From the NCBI GenBank assembly GCA_903906315.1, contig CAIVJW010000181.1, forward strand, positions 1 to 64,000: a stretch of DNA of 64,000 nucleotides, given 5' to 3'. Below the pieces are notes generated by a model. The model saw only the letters and a list, made by a program, of their open reading frames with translations. It searched no databases and was not told where the DNA came from. Source of the DNA: an uncultured delta proteobacterium. Lineage in GTDB: Bacteria > Myxococcota_A > Polyangia > Polyangiales > Polyangiaceae. Position 1 is the first letter of the stretch. Each line of letters starts with the position of its first letter. The position numbers and the translations under genes are program-made. Below are positions 46,209 to 54,379 of this stretch, piece after piece.

Positions 46209-46931
46209 GTGGGCCGGACCGTTTCACGTGAAACAGGGGTGACCCGAATCGCCGTCATCGGCACCGGCACGGCCGTCGGCAAGACCCACGCAACCCGCGC
46301 CCTCACGCTCGCCCTCGCCCACACCGGCGCCGAGGTCGCCGCCCTCAAGCCCATCGAGTCCGGCGTCGGCGCCGGCCCCACCGACTTCGACCTTCTCGCG
46401 CGAGCCGGCACCTTCTCAGTAGCCCCGCCCCCGTACGCCTTCCCGGACGCCCTCTCACCGCACCTGGCTGCCCGCCGAGCCCGACGCCCCGTCCGGATCG
46501 ACGTCGTCGCAGACTGGGTACGCAATCACCCCGCCCGTTGGACCTTCATCGAGACGGCAGGCGCCCTACTCAGCCCCTTGAGCTTGCGCACCACCAACCT
46601 CGACCTCGTCGTCGAGCTCGACTGCGCCGCCGTCGTCCTCGTGGCCCAGGATCGCCTCGGCGTCCTGCACGAGCTCCGCGCGTGCACCCTCGCGCTCCGC
46701 GTCGCTCTCCCCGACATTCCCCTCCTAGTCCTCCTCCAGCCACCCGCCCGCCCCGACACCTCGACCGGCGTCAACGCGGACGAGGTCCGGCGCCTGGGCA
46801 TCGCCAGGCAGGTCCACAGCCTGCCGCGCCACGCGAGCCCGGACCATCCCTCCGTCCAAGTCGCAGCCGGTCGGGCTCTCCGTGCGCTGGCGCGCCTCAC
46901 CGGACCCGCCTCCCGCCCCCCGACGCGCTGA
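46209..46931 (+). CDS. bioD: Dethiobiotin synthetase
   Basis: 240 aa from the GTG at 46209; a second GTG at 46239 (VTRIAVIGTG) would give 230 aa and fits the family N-terminus better, while 46209 has the better Shine-Dalgarno-like GGGG and is coupled to the bioF stop. ATP-dependent carboxylation of 7,8-diaminopelargonate. The P-loop is GTGTAVGKTHATRAL, with ALKPIESGV for substrate binding and FIETAGALLSP matching the (E/G)-GAGG-like loop in degenerate form. If 46209 is used, a parS palindrome encodes residues VSRET. The gene converges on the ABC ATPase with 12 bp between. Confidence 0.9.
   Translation: MGRTVSRETGVTRIAVIGTGTAVGKTHATRALTLALAHTGAEVAALKPIESGVGAGPTDFDLLARAGTFSVAPPPYAFPDALSPHLAARRARRPVRIDVVADWVRNHPARWTFIETAGALLSPLSLRTTNLDLVVELDCAAVVLVAQDRLGVLHELRACTLALRVALPDIPLLVLLQPPARPDTSTGVNADEVRRLGIARQVHSLPRHASPDHPSVQVAAGRALRALARLTGPASRPPTR
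46220..46235. other. parS centromere-like site (ParB binding)
   Basis: A perfect 14-bp palindrome GTTTCACGTGAAAC at 46221-46234, flanked C and A, matches the bacterial parS consensus tGTTtCACGTGaAACa at 15 of 16 positions. ParB loads here and spreads to organise origin segregation with ParA/SMC. Such sites cluster near oriC, and dnaN-recF-gyrB lie 3 kb away. No parA or parB gene is in the window. Confidence 0.88.
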
Positions 46932-46943
46932 GTCGAACCCCGC

Positions 46944-47621
46944 TCAGCTGCTCGCGACCACGCGCCCGCGCTCGAGCCGAACGCGCGCAGTCACGTGCTC
47001 CCGAAACACCTCGGGCTCGTGCGTCGCGACCATCACCACCGCGCCGTGGGCGACCTCCTCGGTGATCACCAGCAACAGCCGCGTCACGCCAGCCTTGTCC
47101 AGGCCGGTCGTCGGCTCGTCCAGAAGCACGACCGACGGCGCGTGAACCAACGCGCGGGCTAGCGCGACCCGCTGCCGCTGCCCCCGCGAGTAGGTACGGA
47201 TCGGCCGCATCGCGAAGCTCCCGAGCTCGAACCGCTCCCTCGAGCGCTCCCATGACTCTTTCGCGTCGAGCCCCTGGATACGAGCCGCCAACTCGATGTT
47301 CTGCCGTCCGGAAAGGTCGGGGTACGCCAGCGTCTCGTGCGACACCCAGCCCAGCCGCGCACGCACGCTCAGCACGTCGTCGTCGAATGGCTCGTACCGC
47401 ACCCGCCCCGACGAAGCTCGGATCACCGTCCCGACGACGCCTAGCAACGTCGACTTCCCCGAGCCGTTCGATCCCTCGATCAGGGTCAACGCCCGGGACT
47501 GGAACTCCGCGTCGACCCCCCGAAGCGCCAGCGTCGACCCGTACGCCTTCGCCACCCCTTCGACCACGACCCGGGTGATCGCCCCACTTCCTTCGCTCAC
47601 GTTCGCTCCCATCACCTTCAC
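46944..47621 (-). CDS. ABC transporter ATP-binding protein (CcmA-like), no adjacent permease
   Basis: 225 aa, GTG start overlapping the kinase stop by 4 bp (GTGA). Complete nucleotide-binding domain: Walker A EGSNGSGKSTLLGVVG, Q-loop region GWVSHETLAYP, signature YSRGQRQRVALARAL, Walker B VVLLDEPTTGLD and switch His in VATHEPEVF. The short length and TYSRGQ signature resemble CcmA/NatA-type subunits. No membrane partner is beside it; downstream is convergent bioD. It must work with a permease encoded elsewhere or have a regulatory role with the kinase. Confidence 0.93.
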   Translation of the reverse strand: MKVMGANVSEGSGAITRVVVEGVAKAYGSTLALRGVDAEFQSRALTLIEGSNGSGKSTLLGVVGTVIRASSGRVRYEPFDDDVLSVRARLGWVSHETLAYPDLSGRQNIELAARIQGLDAKESWERSRERFELGSFAMRPIRTYSRGQRQRVALARALVHAPSVVLLDEPTTGLDKAGVTRLLLVITEEVAHGAVVMVATHEPEVFREHVTARVRLERGRVVASS

Positions 47622-48817
47622 TTCGCCTTCGGCCGCACCGCGAATCCGCCCTCGCGTCGGACAACCGTCACCGAGTCGTCCAGAAACGACGGCTCGTCTA
47701 CCAGCGTCGACTCCGGGTCGGATCCCCCGGGATCCCAGCGCCCCGCACCCACAGGCGCAGCGCTCGCCCCGGCGGCCGCCCCGATCACGACCGTCTCCTC
47801 CGACTGAAAGAATGCCCCAGCTTTCGGCGGCGGGACCATCGCTCTACCCACCGGCACCGTCGCGAAGACCTCCACCCGGGCGAGCGCCTCGAGCATCTCG
47901 AGCCCGGTCGCGAACCGATCCTCACGCGCCTTCGAGAGAGCCCGGTCGACCACCCGGCTCACCCCCGCAGGAACTTCGACCCGAAGCATCGCCACGGGCA
48001 CGTGCTTCGCCGTGAGAATCTGGACCAGCAGTGCGTTGTAATTGCTCGCATCGAACGGCAGCCGCCCCAAGAGCGCTTCATACAGCATCACGCCTACGGC
48101 CCACAGATCCACCCGGCCATCCAGCTCCCGGTCACCGCGCGCCTGCTCGGGCGCCATGTAGTACGGTGTCCCGTCGACCCCGCCAGGAACGCTCGTTACG
48201 ACGCCAGCCTCGTCGCTTCCCCCCGTTCGGGCGATCCCGAAATCGAGAATCTTGGCTACCGGCCCGATGCCAGGTCGCTGCCCGAGAAACACGTTCTCGG
48301 GCTTGAGATCGCAGTGGACGATCCCCTTCTCATGCGCGGTCGCGAGCGCACTGAGCACCTGCAGGGCCAGCTCGCGCAGCTCCGGCCATGCCATGCAGGG
48401 ATCGGCCTTCAGCCGCCCAGCGAAGGTCCGCCCGTGCAATCGCTCCATCACGACGAACGGGCTCCCATCGTCCAGCCGCCCCACGTCGAAGACCTCGCAG
48501 ACGTTCGGGTGCTCGACCGAAGCCGCCACGCGCGCCTCGTGCCGTAGCCGCGCGGCGGCCTCCCTATCGCCCCTCAGCCCCGAACGGACCACCTTGATGG
48601 CCACCATGCGTCCGAGCGCCAGGTGCTCGGCCTCGTAGACCTCGCCCATTGCACCGGCACCGAGGAGCTTCGTCACCCCGTAACGGTCCCCGATGACCCG
48701 CCCCACGAGCTGCCGCTCCCCGACCTCGGCGCGAGCTACCACGAGGCGCGGCGAAGCGGCGCACACGCCCGCTGCCTCGTGCGTCGACCCGCAAAACGGA
48801 CACAGCGAACCTCTCAT
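47618..48817 (-). CDS. Ser/Thr protein kinase with N-terminal zinc-ribbon motif
   Basis: 399 aa from the ATG at 48817; the open frame extends further upstream into the origin-like spacer but without family similarity. The N-terminus CPFCGSTHEAAGVC looks like a zinc ribbon. The kinase domain (about 48-300) has the glycine loop LLGAGAMGEVYEAEH, Lys in MVAIKVVRSG, catalytic loop GIVHCDLKPENVFLG (HCD in place of HRD), DFGIARTGG and the APE motif YYMAPEQARGD. A low-complexity tail of about 100 residues follows, without a TM helix, so the protein is probably cytoplasmic. It is coupled to the ABC ATPase by a GTGA overlap. Confidence 0.94.
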   Translation of the reverse strand: MRGSLCPFCGSTHEAAGVCAASPRLVVARAEVGERQLVGRVIGDRYGVTKLLGAGAMGEVYEAEHLALGRMVAIKVVRSGLRGDREAAARLRHEARVAASVEHPNVCEVFDVGRLDDGSPFVVMERLHGRTFAGRLKADPCMAWPELRELALQVLSALATAHEKGIVHCDLKPENVFLGQRPGIGPVAKILDFGIARTGGSDEAGVVTSVPGGVDGTPYYMAPEQARGDRELDGRVDLWAVGVMLYEALLGRLPFDASNYNALLVQILTAKHVPVAMLRVEVPAGVSRVVDRALSKAREDRFATGLEMLEALARVEVFATVPVGRAMVPPPKAGAFFQSEETVVIGAAAGASAAPVGAGRWDPGGSDPESTLVDEPSFLDDSVTVVRREGGFAVRPKAK

Positions 48818-49235
48818 CGAGCCGCGTACGTTCTGCCATCCCCTGCGCCCGGCCAACGAAAAAAACACTGCCCTGCGCCCCCCCCCGCTTCCTGGGGACA
48901 ACCCCTGCCCAACTCCGGGTCGAACGCGGGACAACTCGCCCAGTTCCCCCCACCGACGCAACGTGACCCCACCATAACCCCGGTTGCGCCTCCCCCGACC
49001 CCGGAGTTCTCCCTCCGGCAAGCCCTCGACATCGCACGGGTACAACCGGTTATCCCCGTCCTCCACAGGCCCTAAGACGGCTACGGATCTCATTTAGATC
49101 AACCAAATCCGGAACCGTAGAGCCACCGGCCGAGCCTCGGCGCGACGCCTCGCTTTCTTCCGAACCGCGCTGCCGAGGGTCTGCTAAGAGGGGCACGTCG
49201 AGCGCGCCACGAAGCGCCTCGTGGGTGGAGCAGCC
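48818..49235. other. Candidate oriC: dnaN-proximal spacer with DnaA-box-like sites
   Basis: A 418-bp spacer directly before dnaN. DnaA-box-like 9-mers (consensus TTWTNCACA, here compared with TTATCCACA): TTGTCCCCA on the minus strand (48893-48901), TTATCCCCG (49050-49058) and, immediately adjoining, TCCTCCACA (49059-49067), plus a weaker TTGTCCCGC on the minus strand (48926-48934). An AT-richer stretch at 49089-49110 (catttagatcaaccaaatcc) could be the unwinding element. The dnaN-recF-gyrB context and the nearby parS support an origin. None of the boxes is a perfect match. Confidence 0.5.
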
Positions 49236-50366
49236 ATGGACCTCGTCATCGCGAAGAAAGACCTCCTGCGCCTGGTGGCTCGTTGCCAGGGCGTAGCCGA
49301 CAAGAAGAGCGCCATGCCGGCGCTCGCCAACGTCCTGCTCTCCGCCGAGGGCAACGTGCTTCGCGTCGCGGCGACCGACCTCTACCTCGCCGTTACCGGC
49401 CAGGCGACCGCCGAGGTGGCCAAGGCGGGCAGCGTAGCCGTCCCCGCGAAGGATCTCCTCGAGCGGGTGAAAATGATGCCCGACGGTCCGGTGCAGATCG
49501 TCGCCAAGGACGGCGCGCAGACCACGCTCAAGGCTGTCGGATCGCCCCGCCGATACACGATTCATGGCATGCCCGGGACCGACTTCCCGGCGCTCCCCCA
49601 GCCCTCGCCCGACGCCCCGTCGCTCGAGCTGCCCATCGACGTTCTGTCGACCCTGATCGCCCGCACGCACTTCTCGATCTCGACCGACGAGACCCGCGCG
49701 CACGTCAACAGCGCGCTCTTCGAGTGGGCAGGCGAGCGCGTCCGCATGGTGACGACCGATGGTCATCGCCTCTCGAAGATGGAGATCACCGTCGGCGGAA
49801 CCAACGCCACCGCGACGATGCTCATCCCCCTGAAGGCAGTGAACGAGCTCCGTCGCCTCGCCGACGAGTCGCGGGCCGAGAAGGAAGTCCCCGCGGTCCG
49901 CATCACGCAGAGCGGCCCCAACGCCTTCTTCAGCATCGCCGGAATGCAGTTCTCGGTGAAGCTCGTCGACGCCCAGTTCCCGCCCTACCAGCAGGTCATC
50001 CCGAGCGTCACCGACCGGTCGGTTCGCGCTCCTCGCAGCGCCTTCTCCGACGCGCTCAAGGCCGTAGCGCTCGCCGCCAGCGACCGCACGGGCGGCGTCA
50101 AGCTCGCCATGACGGCCGGCACCCTCCGCATCACGAGCGAGAGCCCGGAGAGCGGCAACGGCTTCGATGAGGTCCCCGTCGACTACGCCGGCCCGGACCT
50201 CACCATCGGCTTCAACGCCAAGTACTTCCTCGACGTCCTCGCCGCCATCGACGACGACGAGGTCATCCTCGGCATCTCCGGCGAGCTCGACCCGGCCGTT
50301 CTCCGGCCCGGCACGGAGTCCGCGGAGCAAAGCTACGTCGCCGTCGTCATGCCGATGCGGATCTGA
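49236..50366 (+). CDS. dnaN: DNA polymerase III beta subunit (sliding clamp)
   Basis: 376 aa; the ATG at 49236 follows GGAG with 5-nt spacing and is preferred to a GTG 15 bp upstream. It forms the dimeric ring that tethers DNA polymerase III to DNA. Family landmarks: MDLVIAKKDLLRLVARCQGV, LRVAATDLYLAVTGQA, VRMVTTDGHRLSKMEI, VKLVDAQFPPYQQVIPS and the C-terminal clamp-binding groove VAVVMPMRI. Length is normal. recF follows after 3 nt. Confidence 0.98.
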   Translation: MDLVIAKKDLLRLVARCQGVADKKSAMPALANVLLSAEGNVLRVAATDLYLAVTGQATAEVAKAGSVAVPAKDLLERVKMMPDGPVQIVAKDGAQTTLKAVGSPRRYTIHGMPGTDFPALPQPSPDAPSLELPIDVLSTLIARTHFSISTDETRAHVNSALFEWAGERVRMVTTDGHRLSKMEITVGGTNATATMLIPLKAVNELRRLADESRAEKEVPAVRITQSGPNAFFSIAGMQFSVKLVDAQFPPYQQVIPSVTDRSVRAPRSAFSDALKAVALAASDRTGGVKLAMTAGTLRITSESPESGNGFDEVPVDYAGPDLTIGFNAKYFLDVLAAIDDDEVILGISGELDPAVLRPGTESAEQSYVAVVMPMRI

Positions 50367-50369
50367 TCG

Positions 50370-51497
50370 GTGTCGCTCCCGCGGGTGCTGCTCGAGCGGC
50401 TCTCGGTGCGCCACCTGCGCAACCTCAGCCACGTCGACCTCGAGCCCGCTCGGCGCGTCAACGTCATCGGCGGCAACAACGGCCAGGGCAAGACGAGCCT
50501 CCTCGAGGCCGTCTACCTTGCCTGCACCTCGAAGAGCTTTCGGACCGCCCGCCCCGCGGAGCTCATCCAGCACGGGTCGGATACCGGCAGCGCGCGCGCC
50601 CGCCTCGCGGACTACGGTGACGACGACGGCCCGGCGCCGATTGCTCGAGAGCAGACGGTCGCAGTCCAGGGGCGCCGCGTGCAGGTTCGCACCGACGGAA
50701 ACCGGCCCGCGTCTCTCGCCGAGTTCGCCACGCGATCGCCGGTGGTCGCGTTCCACCCCGACGAGCTCACGCTCTCGACCGGCCCCGCTCAGGGCCGCCG
50801 AACGCTCCTCGACCGCCTCGCGCTCTTCATGCAGCCGACGAGTGGAGACCACCGGGCGCGCTACCAGCGGTCGCTGCGGTCCCGCCACGTATTGCTGCGT
50901 CGCCCGTCGCCCGACGAGGCCGAGATCCTCGCCTTCGAGCGCCTGGCCGCCCACCACGGGGCCGCCATCACTCGCGCCCGCGCGGCCGCCGCCACCGCCC
51001 TCATCGCCGAGCTTCTCCCCGCATTCGATCGAATAGCAGCCCCGGGGCTGGTCCTCGGAGCGTGCTACGCGCCGGGCGGGACGGCGGACCCCGACGAAGC
51101 TATCGAGCAGCTTGCTCGTCACCGCGCGCGTGACGCTCACCGGCCCACCGCGAGCTTCGGCCCTCACCGTGACGACCTCGCGCTCACGCTCGACGGGCAC
51201 CCCGTCCGCGCCGTCGCCTCCCAAGGCCAGCACCGCGCGCTGACCCTGGCGCTCAAGGCCGCGGAGACCGCCTCGGTGGCGTCCGCTCGCGGCGTCGAGC
51301 CGATGCTGCTCCTCGACGACGTCTCGAGCGAGCTCGACCCGGACCGCACAGAGGCGCTGTTCACCTTCCTCGGCCTGACCCGCGGTCAGCTCTTCCTGAC
51401 GACGACTCGCCGTGACCTGATCGTCACGCCGGGCGTCGACGCGGCGGACCGGCGCGATTTCGAGGTCCAGGACGGCAAGCTTCACGCGGTCCGCTGA
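50370..51497 (+). CDS. recF: DNA repair and recombination protein RecF
   Basis: 375 aa, GTG start 3 nt after dnaN. An SMC-like ATPase that helps load RecA at gaps with RecO and RecR. Walker A GGNNGQGKTSLLEAVYL, ABC-like signature ASQGQHRALTLALK, Walker B MLLLDDVSSELDPDR and the N-terminal LSVRHLRNLSHVDLEP are all present. The usual dnaN-recF pair is kept, and gyrB follows after a 386-bp gap. Confidence 0.97.
   Translation: MSLPRVLLERLSVRHLRNLSHVDLEPARRVNVIGGNNGQGKTSLLEAVYLACTSKSFRTARPAELIQHGSDTGSARARLADYGDDDGPAPIAREQTVAVQGRRVQVRTDGNRPASLAEFATRSPVVAFHPDELTLSTGPAQGRRTLLDRLALFMQPTSGDHRARYQRSLRSRHVLLRRPSPDEAEILAFERLAAHHGAAITRARAAAATALIAELLPAFDRIAAPGLVLGACYAPGGTADPDEAIEQLARHRARDAHRPTASFGPHRDDLALTLDGHPVRAVASQGQHRALTLALKAAETASVASARGVEPMLLLDDVSSELDPDRTEALFTFLGLTRGQLFLTTTRRDLIVTPGVDAADRRDFEVQDGKLHAVR

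Positions 51498-51589: not shown

Positions 51590-54379
<2,790 letters not shown>

Follow-up and report, generated by a model that had tools for sequence, protein, structure and literature searches.

Background

Among described origins, the one that most resembles the locus analysed here in position is that of Sorangium cellulosum So ce56, a related organism in which oriC was placed next to dnaN, nearly 2 Mb from dnaA, by Gao and Zhang in 2008, according to a review that describes this as an algorithmic proposal for a genome lacking the usual GC-skew inversion (PMC8538405). Because a dnaN-side origin was proposed there as early as 2008, the location that we describe is not new in kind. What is added, for another species, is the anatomy of the module, its linkage to parS, strand skew in two other genomes and the family-wide layout of dnaA and dnaN.

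In its anatomy, the closest system is the basal unwinding system (BUS) of Bacillus subtilis, in incC, which lies between dnaA and dnaN (PMC6669920, PMC8287927, PMC10721633). As formulated in PMC8287927, the BUS rule asks for a DnaA box with at most two mismatches plus a tandem second box with at most four, and for at least three NAN trios. In the experiments reported in PMC10721633, a C at the centre of the first trio was opened about as fast as an A, G and T being slower, and a central cytosine also outperformed G or T in vivo. B. subtilis further has a distal DnaA box that acts with helical phasing; both of its orientations have been examined (PMC6669920).

For segregation, the point of comparison is Myxococcus xanthus, where parS lies near the origin and ParA and ParB are both present; its parAB genes, as those reports give it, are about 35 kb from oriC, and its parS sites number 22 (PMC3899335, PMC3778016). 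More generally, parAB genes are described as usually origin-proximal (PMC3899335).

The dnaN locus

The window is the whole stretch of DNA that was analysed, 64,000 nucleotides of contig C181 in an 8.79-Mb draft genome of 455 contigs; its features are collected in Table 1. From the left, the flank of dnaN comprises genes for chorismate synthase, shikimate kinase/dehydroquinate synthase, a protein without a Pfam match, zapA, an aminotransferase of the bioF kind and a bioD-like gene, the names bioF and bioD being our reading of the Pfam matches Aminotran_1_2 and AAA_26. There follow, on the opposite strand, the ABC ATPase and Ser/Thr kinase genes, and then the spacer, dnaN, the recF-like gene and gyrB. 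The product of dnaN is up to 82% identical to its Minicystis and Sorangium homologues, from which we take the organism to be a Polyangiaceae-like myxobacterium, and a recF homologue stands within 2.5 kb downstream in 65 of the 65 loci with more than 4 kb of sequence from the dnaN start.

Table 1. Features of the dnaN locus, with positions and strands in the window
Feature	Position	Strand	Remarks
parS-like site	46220..46235	+	CGTTTCACGTGAAACA; 1 mismatch; 3.0 kb from dnaN
ABC transporter ATPase gene	46944..47621	-	domain match 3.4e-24
Ser/Thr protein kinase gene	47618..48817	-	Pkinase, 5.8e-43; upstream position, divergent from dnaN
Candidate oriC spacer	48818..49235	.	418 bp, between kinase gene and dnaN
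Distal reverse DnaA box	48893..48901	-	TTGTCCCCA; 2 mismatches; 157 bp upstream of box 1
DnaA box 1	49050..49058	+	TTATCCCCG; 2 mismatches to TTATCCACA
DnaA box 2	49059..49067	+	TCCTCCACA; 2 mismatches, gap 0 to box 1
GC linker GGCC	49068..49071	+	4 bp; separates box 2 from first trio
Trio array	49072..49089	+	CTA AGA CGG CTA CGG ATC
AT-rich stretch, probable duplex-unwinding element	49084..49118	.	AT content
CTGCTAAGAGGGG element	49181..49193	+	about 45 bp before dnaN; alignment conservation
dnaN, sliding clamp	49236..50366	+	three DNA_pol3_beta domains
recF-like gene	50370..51497	+	SMC_N domain, immediately 3' of dnaN
gyrB	51881..54379	+	start codon uncertain

The original prediction placed a Ser/Thr kinase and an ABC ATPase at the upstream position beside dnaN, which their domain matches bear out, and took dnaA to have been displaced by the kinase. 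The gene dnaA is indeed absent from this place in 14 of 14 family members. A displacement caused by the kinase goes beyond the evidence: a similar divergent kinase lies within 2 kb upstream of dnaN in just 17 of the 68 relatives with more than 2 kb of upstream sequence, so that only some members of the group have it beside the spacer.

The DnaA boxes and the unwinding module

Measured against TTATCCACA, the spacer has no DnaA box at zero or one mismatch, three at up to two (48893-48901 on the minus strand, 49050-49058 and 49059-49067 on the plus strand) and seven at up to three. The boxes that had been predicted do exist; whether one counts four of them, as was done at first, is a matter of the threshold. 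When the spacer was shuffled with its dinucleotides preserved, the shuffles reached three boxes at up to two mismatches in 1 of 500 trials and seven at up to three in 22 of 500, so that the cluster exceeds chance for this intergenic spacer. Counting single boxes over the whole window was uninformative (17 boxes, 17.00 expected) and was given up. The case for the boxes rests on conservation: when the spacer is aligned to 12 close loci, or to 19 from a wider range, the box pair and the bases that follow it are, together with the CTGCTAA element, the most conserved noncoding bases. CTGCTAA, the core of the CTGCTAAGAGGGG element, is invariant in all 13 aligned loci, the window included, and is perhaps part of the dnaN promoter.

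The conserved module, 49050-49089, begins with the tandem boxes; a linker of 4 bp separates them from a three-base repeat that leads into AT-rich DNA. Its consensus reads GTTATCCCCA nTATCCACA GGCC CTA CTA CGA CGA C, then AT-rich DNA, and the window has TTATCCCCG TCCTCCACA GGCC CTA AGA CGG CTA CGG ATC. The two boxes are back to back, as had been noticed at the outset, with no base between them and two mismatches each. The AT-richer stretch expected near 49100 was likewise found beside them: 49073-49102 is 60% AT, a level reached by 0.016% of the 30-mers of the window; 30-bp windows at 49074-49118 have 57% AT, against 20-40% in the rest of the spacer, and the 21 bases 3' of trio 5 have 71%.

A 36-base weight matrix, trained on the relatives alone, gives the module at 49050 a score of 41.6 bits, although its seed, an alignment consensus that includes the window, was not fully blind. 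The second-best score within the 64-kb window is -2.0, and 140 regions of 20 kb, sampled from two relatives, gave no score above 14.3. Of 112 relatives, 80 were listed and 72 used, those with less than 720 bp upstream of dnaN (L022, L034, L036, L039, L050, L053, L067 and L081) being left out. Upstream of dnaN, scores above 19.9 bits were obtained, by leave-one-out, in 68 of these 72 listed relatives; the exceptions are L064, L079, L080 and L082, whose best module scores are below 20 and which do not enter the counts of trios and distal boxes below. In Sorangium So ceGT47, three copies of the module stand 278 bp apart, at 153, 431 and 709 bp upstream of dnaN (43.9, 43.3 and 43.3 bits), a tandemly triplicated origin module.

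A coarser pattern of the module, with one mismatch allowed, has a single match in the window's own genome; of the 14 genomes of the family, 13 have a match no more than 700 bp upstream of dnaN. Over the phylum, the broad pattern matches in 42 of 143 genomes. Inside the family, its 17 matches stand against 3 for a reversed-pattern control. Outside, the control outnumbers the pattern (about 91 to 36), so that these matches are mostly chance, though eight of them sit upstream of dnaN.

The trio register and DnaA

In the window, the trio centres on the minus strand are A in trios 1, 4 and 6 and C in trios 2, 3 and 5. The same register is seen in trios 2-5 of the relatives, near-identical loci having been collapsed to 60 non-redundant listed ones: of 240 trios, 179 have T or G at the centre, 35 at the first position and 67 at the third. 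Read on the bottom strand, the 240 centres are A in 89, C in 90, G in 52 and T in 9. Central and flanking compositions differ with p of about 1e-44, and 9e-20 with 33 more diverse sequences, p-values that ignore phylogeny. Since central top-strand G rises with the GC content of the locus (Spearman 0.31, p 0.018) and central T falls (Spearman -0.40, p 0.0016), GC pressure contributes to the choice of centre. The natural frequencies, A and C high, G between and T low, agree with the mutagenesis in B. subtilis.

How close is this to a BUS? Shared with the B. subtilis element as described are two co-oriented boxes, a short GC linker, a trio array and AT-rich DNA, all upstream of dnaN. Both boxes of the window have two mismatches and no gap, within the tandem-box rule, and the distances to the trios are 4 bp from box 2 and 13 bp from box 1, within the BUS limit of 16 bp; the second of these distances is the commonest spacer reported. 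Unlike the B. subtilis element, the locus lacks dnaA, and its bound-strand trio centres are A and C about equally, not A. In the window, no run of three or more consecutive NAN trios, with central A on the bound strand, occurs in any register within reach. Among the relatives, such runs occur in 19 of 60 in any register and in 10 of 60 from trio 1, and in 34 of 60 from trio 1 if central C is allowed. We therefore file the window as a BUS-like variant and not as a strict member. A distal DnaA box, the effect of which depends on helical phase in B. subtilis, is common to both, but that of the window is reverse-oriented and about 157 bp away.

The DnaA of the window's genome, aligned to 8btg_A, keeps Glu183, Asn187, Ile190, Ile193, Arg202, Glu223 and Glu228 (B. 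subtilis numbering) and differs at Lys222 (Arg) and Asn196 (His). The base-capture roles of such residues in B. subtilis DnaA are treated in PMC10721633; the five whose change to alanine is severe there, Asn187, Ile190, Ile193, Arg202 and Glu228, are all identical. As far as our literature search reaches, the molecular detail of this origin, with A or C at the trio centres, a phased distal box, and parS near and parAB far, seems new; for natural central-C trios, the search was limited, PMC10721633 and PMC10225481 being among its sources, and does not establish their absence from print.

The distal DnaA box

The rule applied to distal boxes allowed one mismatch at most, with A or C free at position 7, at 20-260 bp upstream of box 1. 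By this rule, a reverse-strand box is present in 48 of 69 loci, the window included, and lacking in 21; a forward-strand box is found in 17 of 69. The tested stretch holds 54 matches to the reverse box, whereas 56 scrambled words gave 0.95 matches on average and 5 at most.

In 21 of 35 sequence clusters the box lies at 155-159 bp. In 12 of the 14 remaining clusters, its distance differs from 157 bp by a whole number of 10.5-bp turns, to within 2.5 bp, the exceptions being 132 and 144. Against a null of uniform placement, which ignores phylogeny, this phasing has p 0.00055, and a cosine test gives p 0.00015. These tests used one hand-entered distance per cluster, one value being picked where a cluster had two (157 for L018/L024, where 110 also occurs, 158 for L030/L033/L048 and 169 for L072/L075), so that phasing was slightly favoured. 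When the distance was chosen at random for each cluster, a mean of 11.5 of 14.5 off-mode clusters lay within 2 bp, and the best-fitting period was 11.25 bp, slightly above the 10.5-bp helical repeat. With a looser clustering threshold of 0.62 the loci all merged into a single group, and this clustering was rejected.

parS and parAB

At up to two mismatches, the parS-like site at 46220-46235 is the only one in the window's own genome, and it is close to the candidate oriC, as origin regions with ParABS would have it. All four complete relatives have an exact parS 2.8-5.1 kb upstream of dnaN, and all five exact sites are found there. Of five mismatched sites in these chromosomes, two are in the same zone and three elsewhere, each of the latter with two mismatches: Minicystis has one of them, and So ce26 the other two, of which one is about 47 kb from dnaN. 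In the upstream flanks of the wider set, many of them short, a parS-like site was seen in 17 of 73 loci, the window included; more distant relatives mostly have none within 10 kb of dnaN.

The parAB genes are arranged otherwise. The window's own genome encodes proteins with confirmed ParA and ParB domains (L233). In all four complete relatives (G001-G004), where the adjoining ParA was identified by eye, parAB is not close to oriC but near the terminus, its distance from dnaN being 0.84-0.92 of the half circle. M. xanthus shares the parS near the origin and the pair of proteins, and differs, as far as the cited reports describe it, in its origin-proximal parAB and its many parS sites, against one parS-like site here.

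Strand composition and the position of dnaA

Where, then, is dnaA? The search that the original prediction had called for found it on another contig (C370:7400-8776), and in the four complete relatives it lies 0.9-1.4 Mb from dnaN, a layout of the Sorangium type. Skew, the other check proposed, was analysed in two complete relatives, So0157-2 and Minicystis, the window's genome being the draft described above. In So0157-2, GC skew is -0.0097 before dnaN, +0.0156 from dnaN to dnaA and +0.0145 after dnaA (sixty 20-kb samples); the change has a Mann-Whitney p of 0.0056 across dnaN and 0.49 across dnaA, and a step at dnaN is favoured by 4.6 logL. With twenty coarse samples alone, the half expected to lead has 0.0124 and the other half -0.0046 if one counts from dnaN (p 0.016), whereas counting from dnaA gives p 0.31. 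A scan for the origin with 80 samples peaks at 13.2 Mb, dnaN being at 13.34 Mb, with t 3.96 near dnaN and 1.43 at dnaA. In Minicystis it is the AT skew that switches, from +0.020 before dnaA and +0.021 between the genes to -0.029 after dnaN, the step at dnaN being favoured by 11.0 logL. The GC skew of Minicystis has no significant switch, and the AT skew of So0157-2 leans to dnaA by 1.5 logL, which is not significant. The single significant signal in each of the two genomes thus switches at dnaN and not at dnaA, and in these relatives the skew did not refute the predicted position.

These data bear on the idea that the module is a relic of an ancestral origin and that another, unrecognised site fires. 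One could point to the boxes of the window, two mismatches from the consensus, and to its trios, which depart further from the canonical form than the relatives' consensus does. A relic, however, would be expected to lose its phased distal box, which is kept in most loci that have one, and the module itself persists, with its trio register, in 68 of 72 listed relatives, while the skew of So0157-2 puts the origin near dnaN. We regard a relic as highly improbable.

A point against the spacer is that boxes closer to the consensus stand upstream of dnaA, while those of the spacer all have at least two mismatches. Two boxes TTGTCCACA with one mismatch precede the dnaA of the window's genome (L001 3031-3039 and 3118-3126), perhaps for dnaA autoregulation, and in three of the four complete relatives an exact TTATCCACA box is located about 120 bp upstream of dnaA. 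One could place the origin there and see in the dnaN spacer only a DnaA-regulated promoter for dnaN-recF-gyrB, to which the conserved CTGCTAAGAGGGG element might belong; the records of three of the four complete relatives were indeed deposited with dnaA at position 58. We consider this quite unlikely. In the window's genome, Minicystis and So0157-2, the surroundings of dnaA have no unwinding-type module, the matrix maximum being 4.4 at a site inside dnaA itself; parS is at dnaN, as is the skew switch in two genomes; and a promoter would need neither a trio register nor AT-rich DNA behind it.

Could both places belong to one split origin, the boxes near the distant dnaA regulating from afar and the dnaN spacer being the part that unwinds? 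DnaA boxes are kept at both genes, and the oriC of B. subtilis is described as bipartite, with unwinding between dnaA and dnaN (PMC6669920). Parts 0.9-1.4 Mb apart, as in the relatives, would hardly make one origin, however, the boxes at dnaA could be autoregulatory, and the spacer already contains a distal box; such an arrangement is very unlikely. Near-consensus pairs of DnaA boxes, 12 bp apart, also occur far from both dnaA and dnaN, at 5106937-5106957 in G004 and 3501227-3501247 in G002, and are perhaps sites of DnaA titration or reactivation.

In the phylum, both genes are listed in 135 of 143 genomes, and dnaA lies directly upstream of dnaN in at least 58, a count that includes five (family f29) with a second, below-cut-off DnaA-like gene there and in which the contig ends of drafts can hide adjacency. 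Among the dnaA matches listed, the two genes adjoin in none of the 14 genomes of the window's family, against 9 of 9 in other families of the order. Where the module pattern was found upstream of dnaN outside the family, it lies between dnaA and dnaN in six of eight genomes. The simplest reading is that the ancestral origin was between the two genes and that dnaA left, in this lineage no later than the base of the family, and independently in others. Two genomes of family f33 (G103 and G131, 91 and 90% complete) have dnaN and no good dnaA among the 11 candidates, out of 15, that were scored in each, the best match having E 5.4e-4 in one and there being none in the other.

A model for initiation

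The origin originally predicted before dnaN is supported by the module, by the sole parS-like site 3 kb off, by skew in two relatives and by the retention of dnaN-recF-gyrB. Very probably, the spacer 48818-49235 is the chromosomal oriC; DnaA binding, looping, unwinding and actual initiation are what we infer for it. We propose that DnaA, made from its gene elsewhere, would bind the tandem boxes, assisted by DnaA on the distal reverse box, which a DNA loop would bring in. A DnaA-ATP filament starting at box 2 would then pass over the GC linker and continue along the trios on their minus strand, capturing those central bases (A or C) that bear an amino group. The AT-rich DNA in front of dnaN would open as a result, allowing helicase loading, and ParB at parS would later segregate the new origins.

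With middling confidence, we extend this to the group: its origin may be a natural variant of the DnaA-trio type that takes C as readily as A at its centres, matching the amine recognition of B. subtilis, with a distal loop box that has shifted mostly by about whole turns (146, 157, 167, 177 and 190 bp). The origin would have stayed with dnaN when dnaA left, with parAB near the terminus.

The chromosomes of the four complete relatives, at 11.3 to 16 Mb, are very large for bacteria, and three of the four records open at dnaA, as though the origin were there. A firm origin position corrects replichore maps, reasoning on gene dosage and coverage-based estimates of growth rate. Beyond this, the two patterns offer tests by natural variation of two claims based on mutagenesis in B. 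subtilis: the trio pattern, of the claim that it is the amino group of a trio's central base that DnaA recognises, and the phasing, of the claim that the distal box loops with a preferred helical phase.
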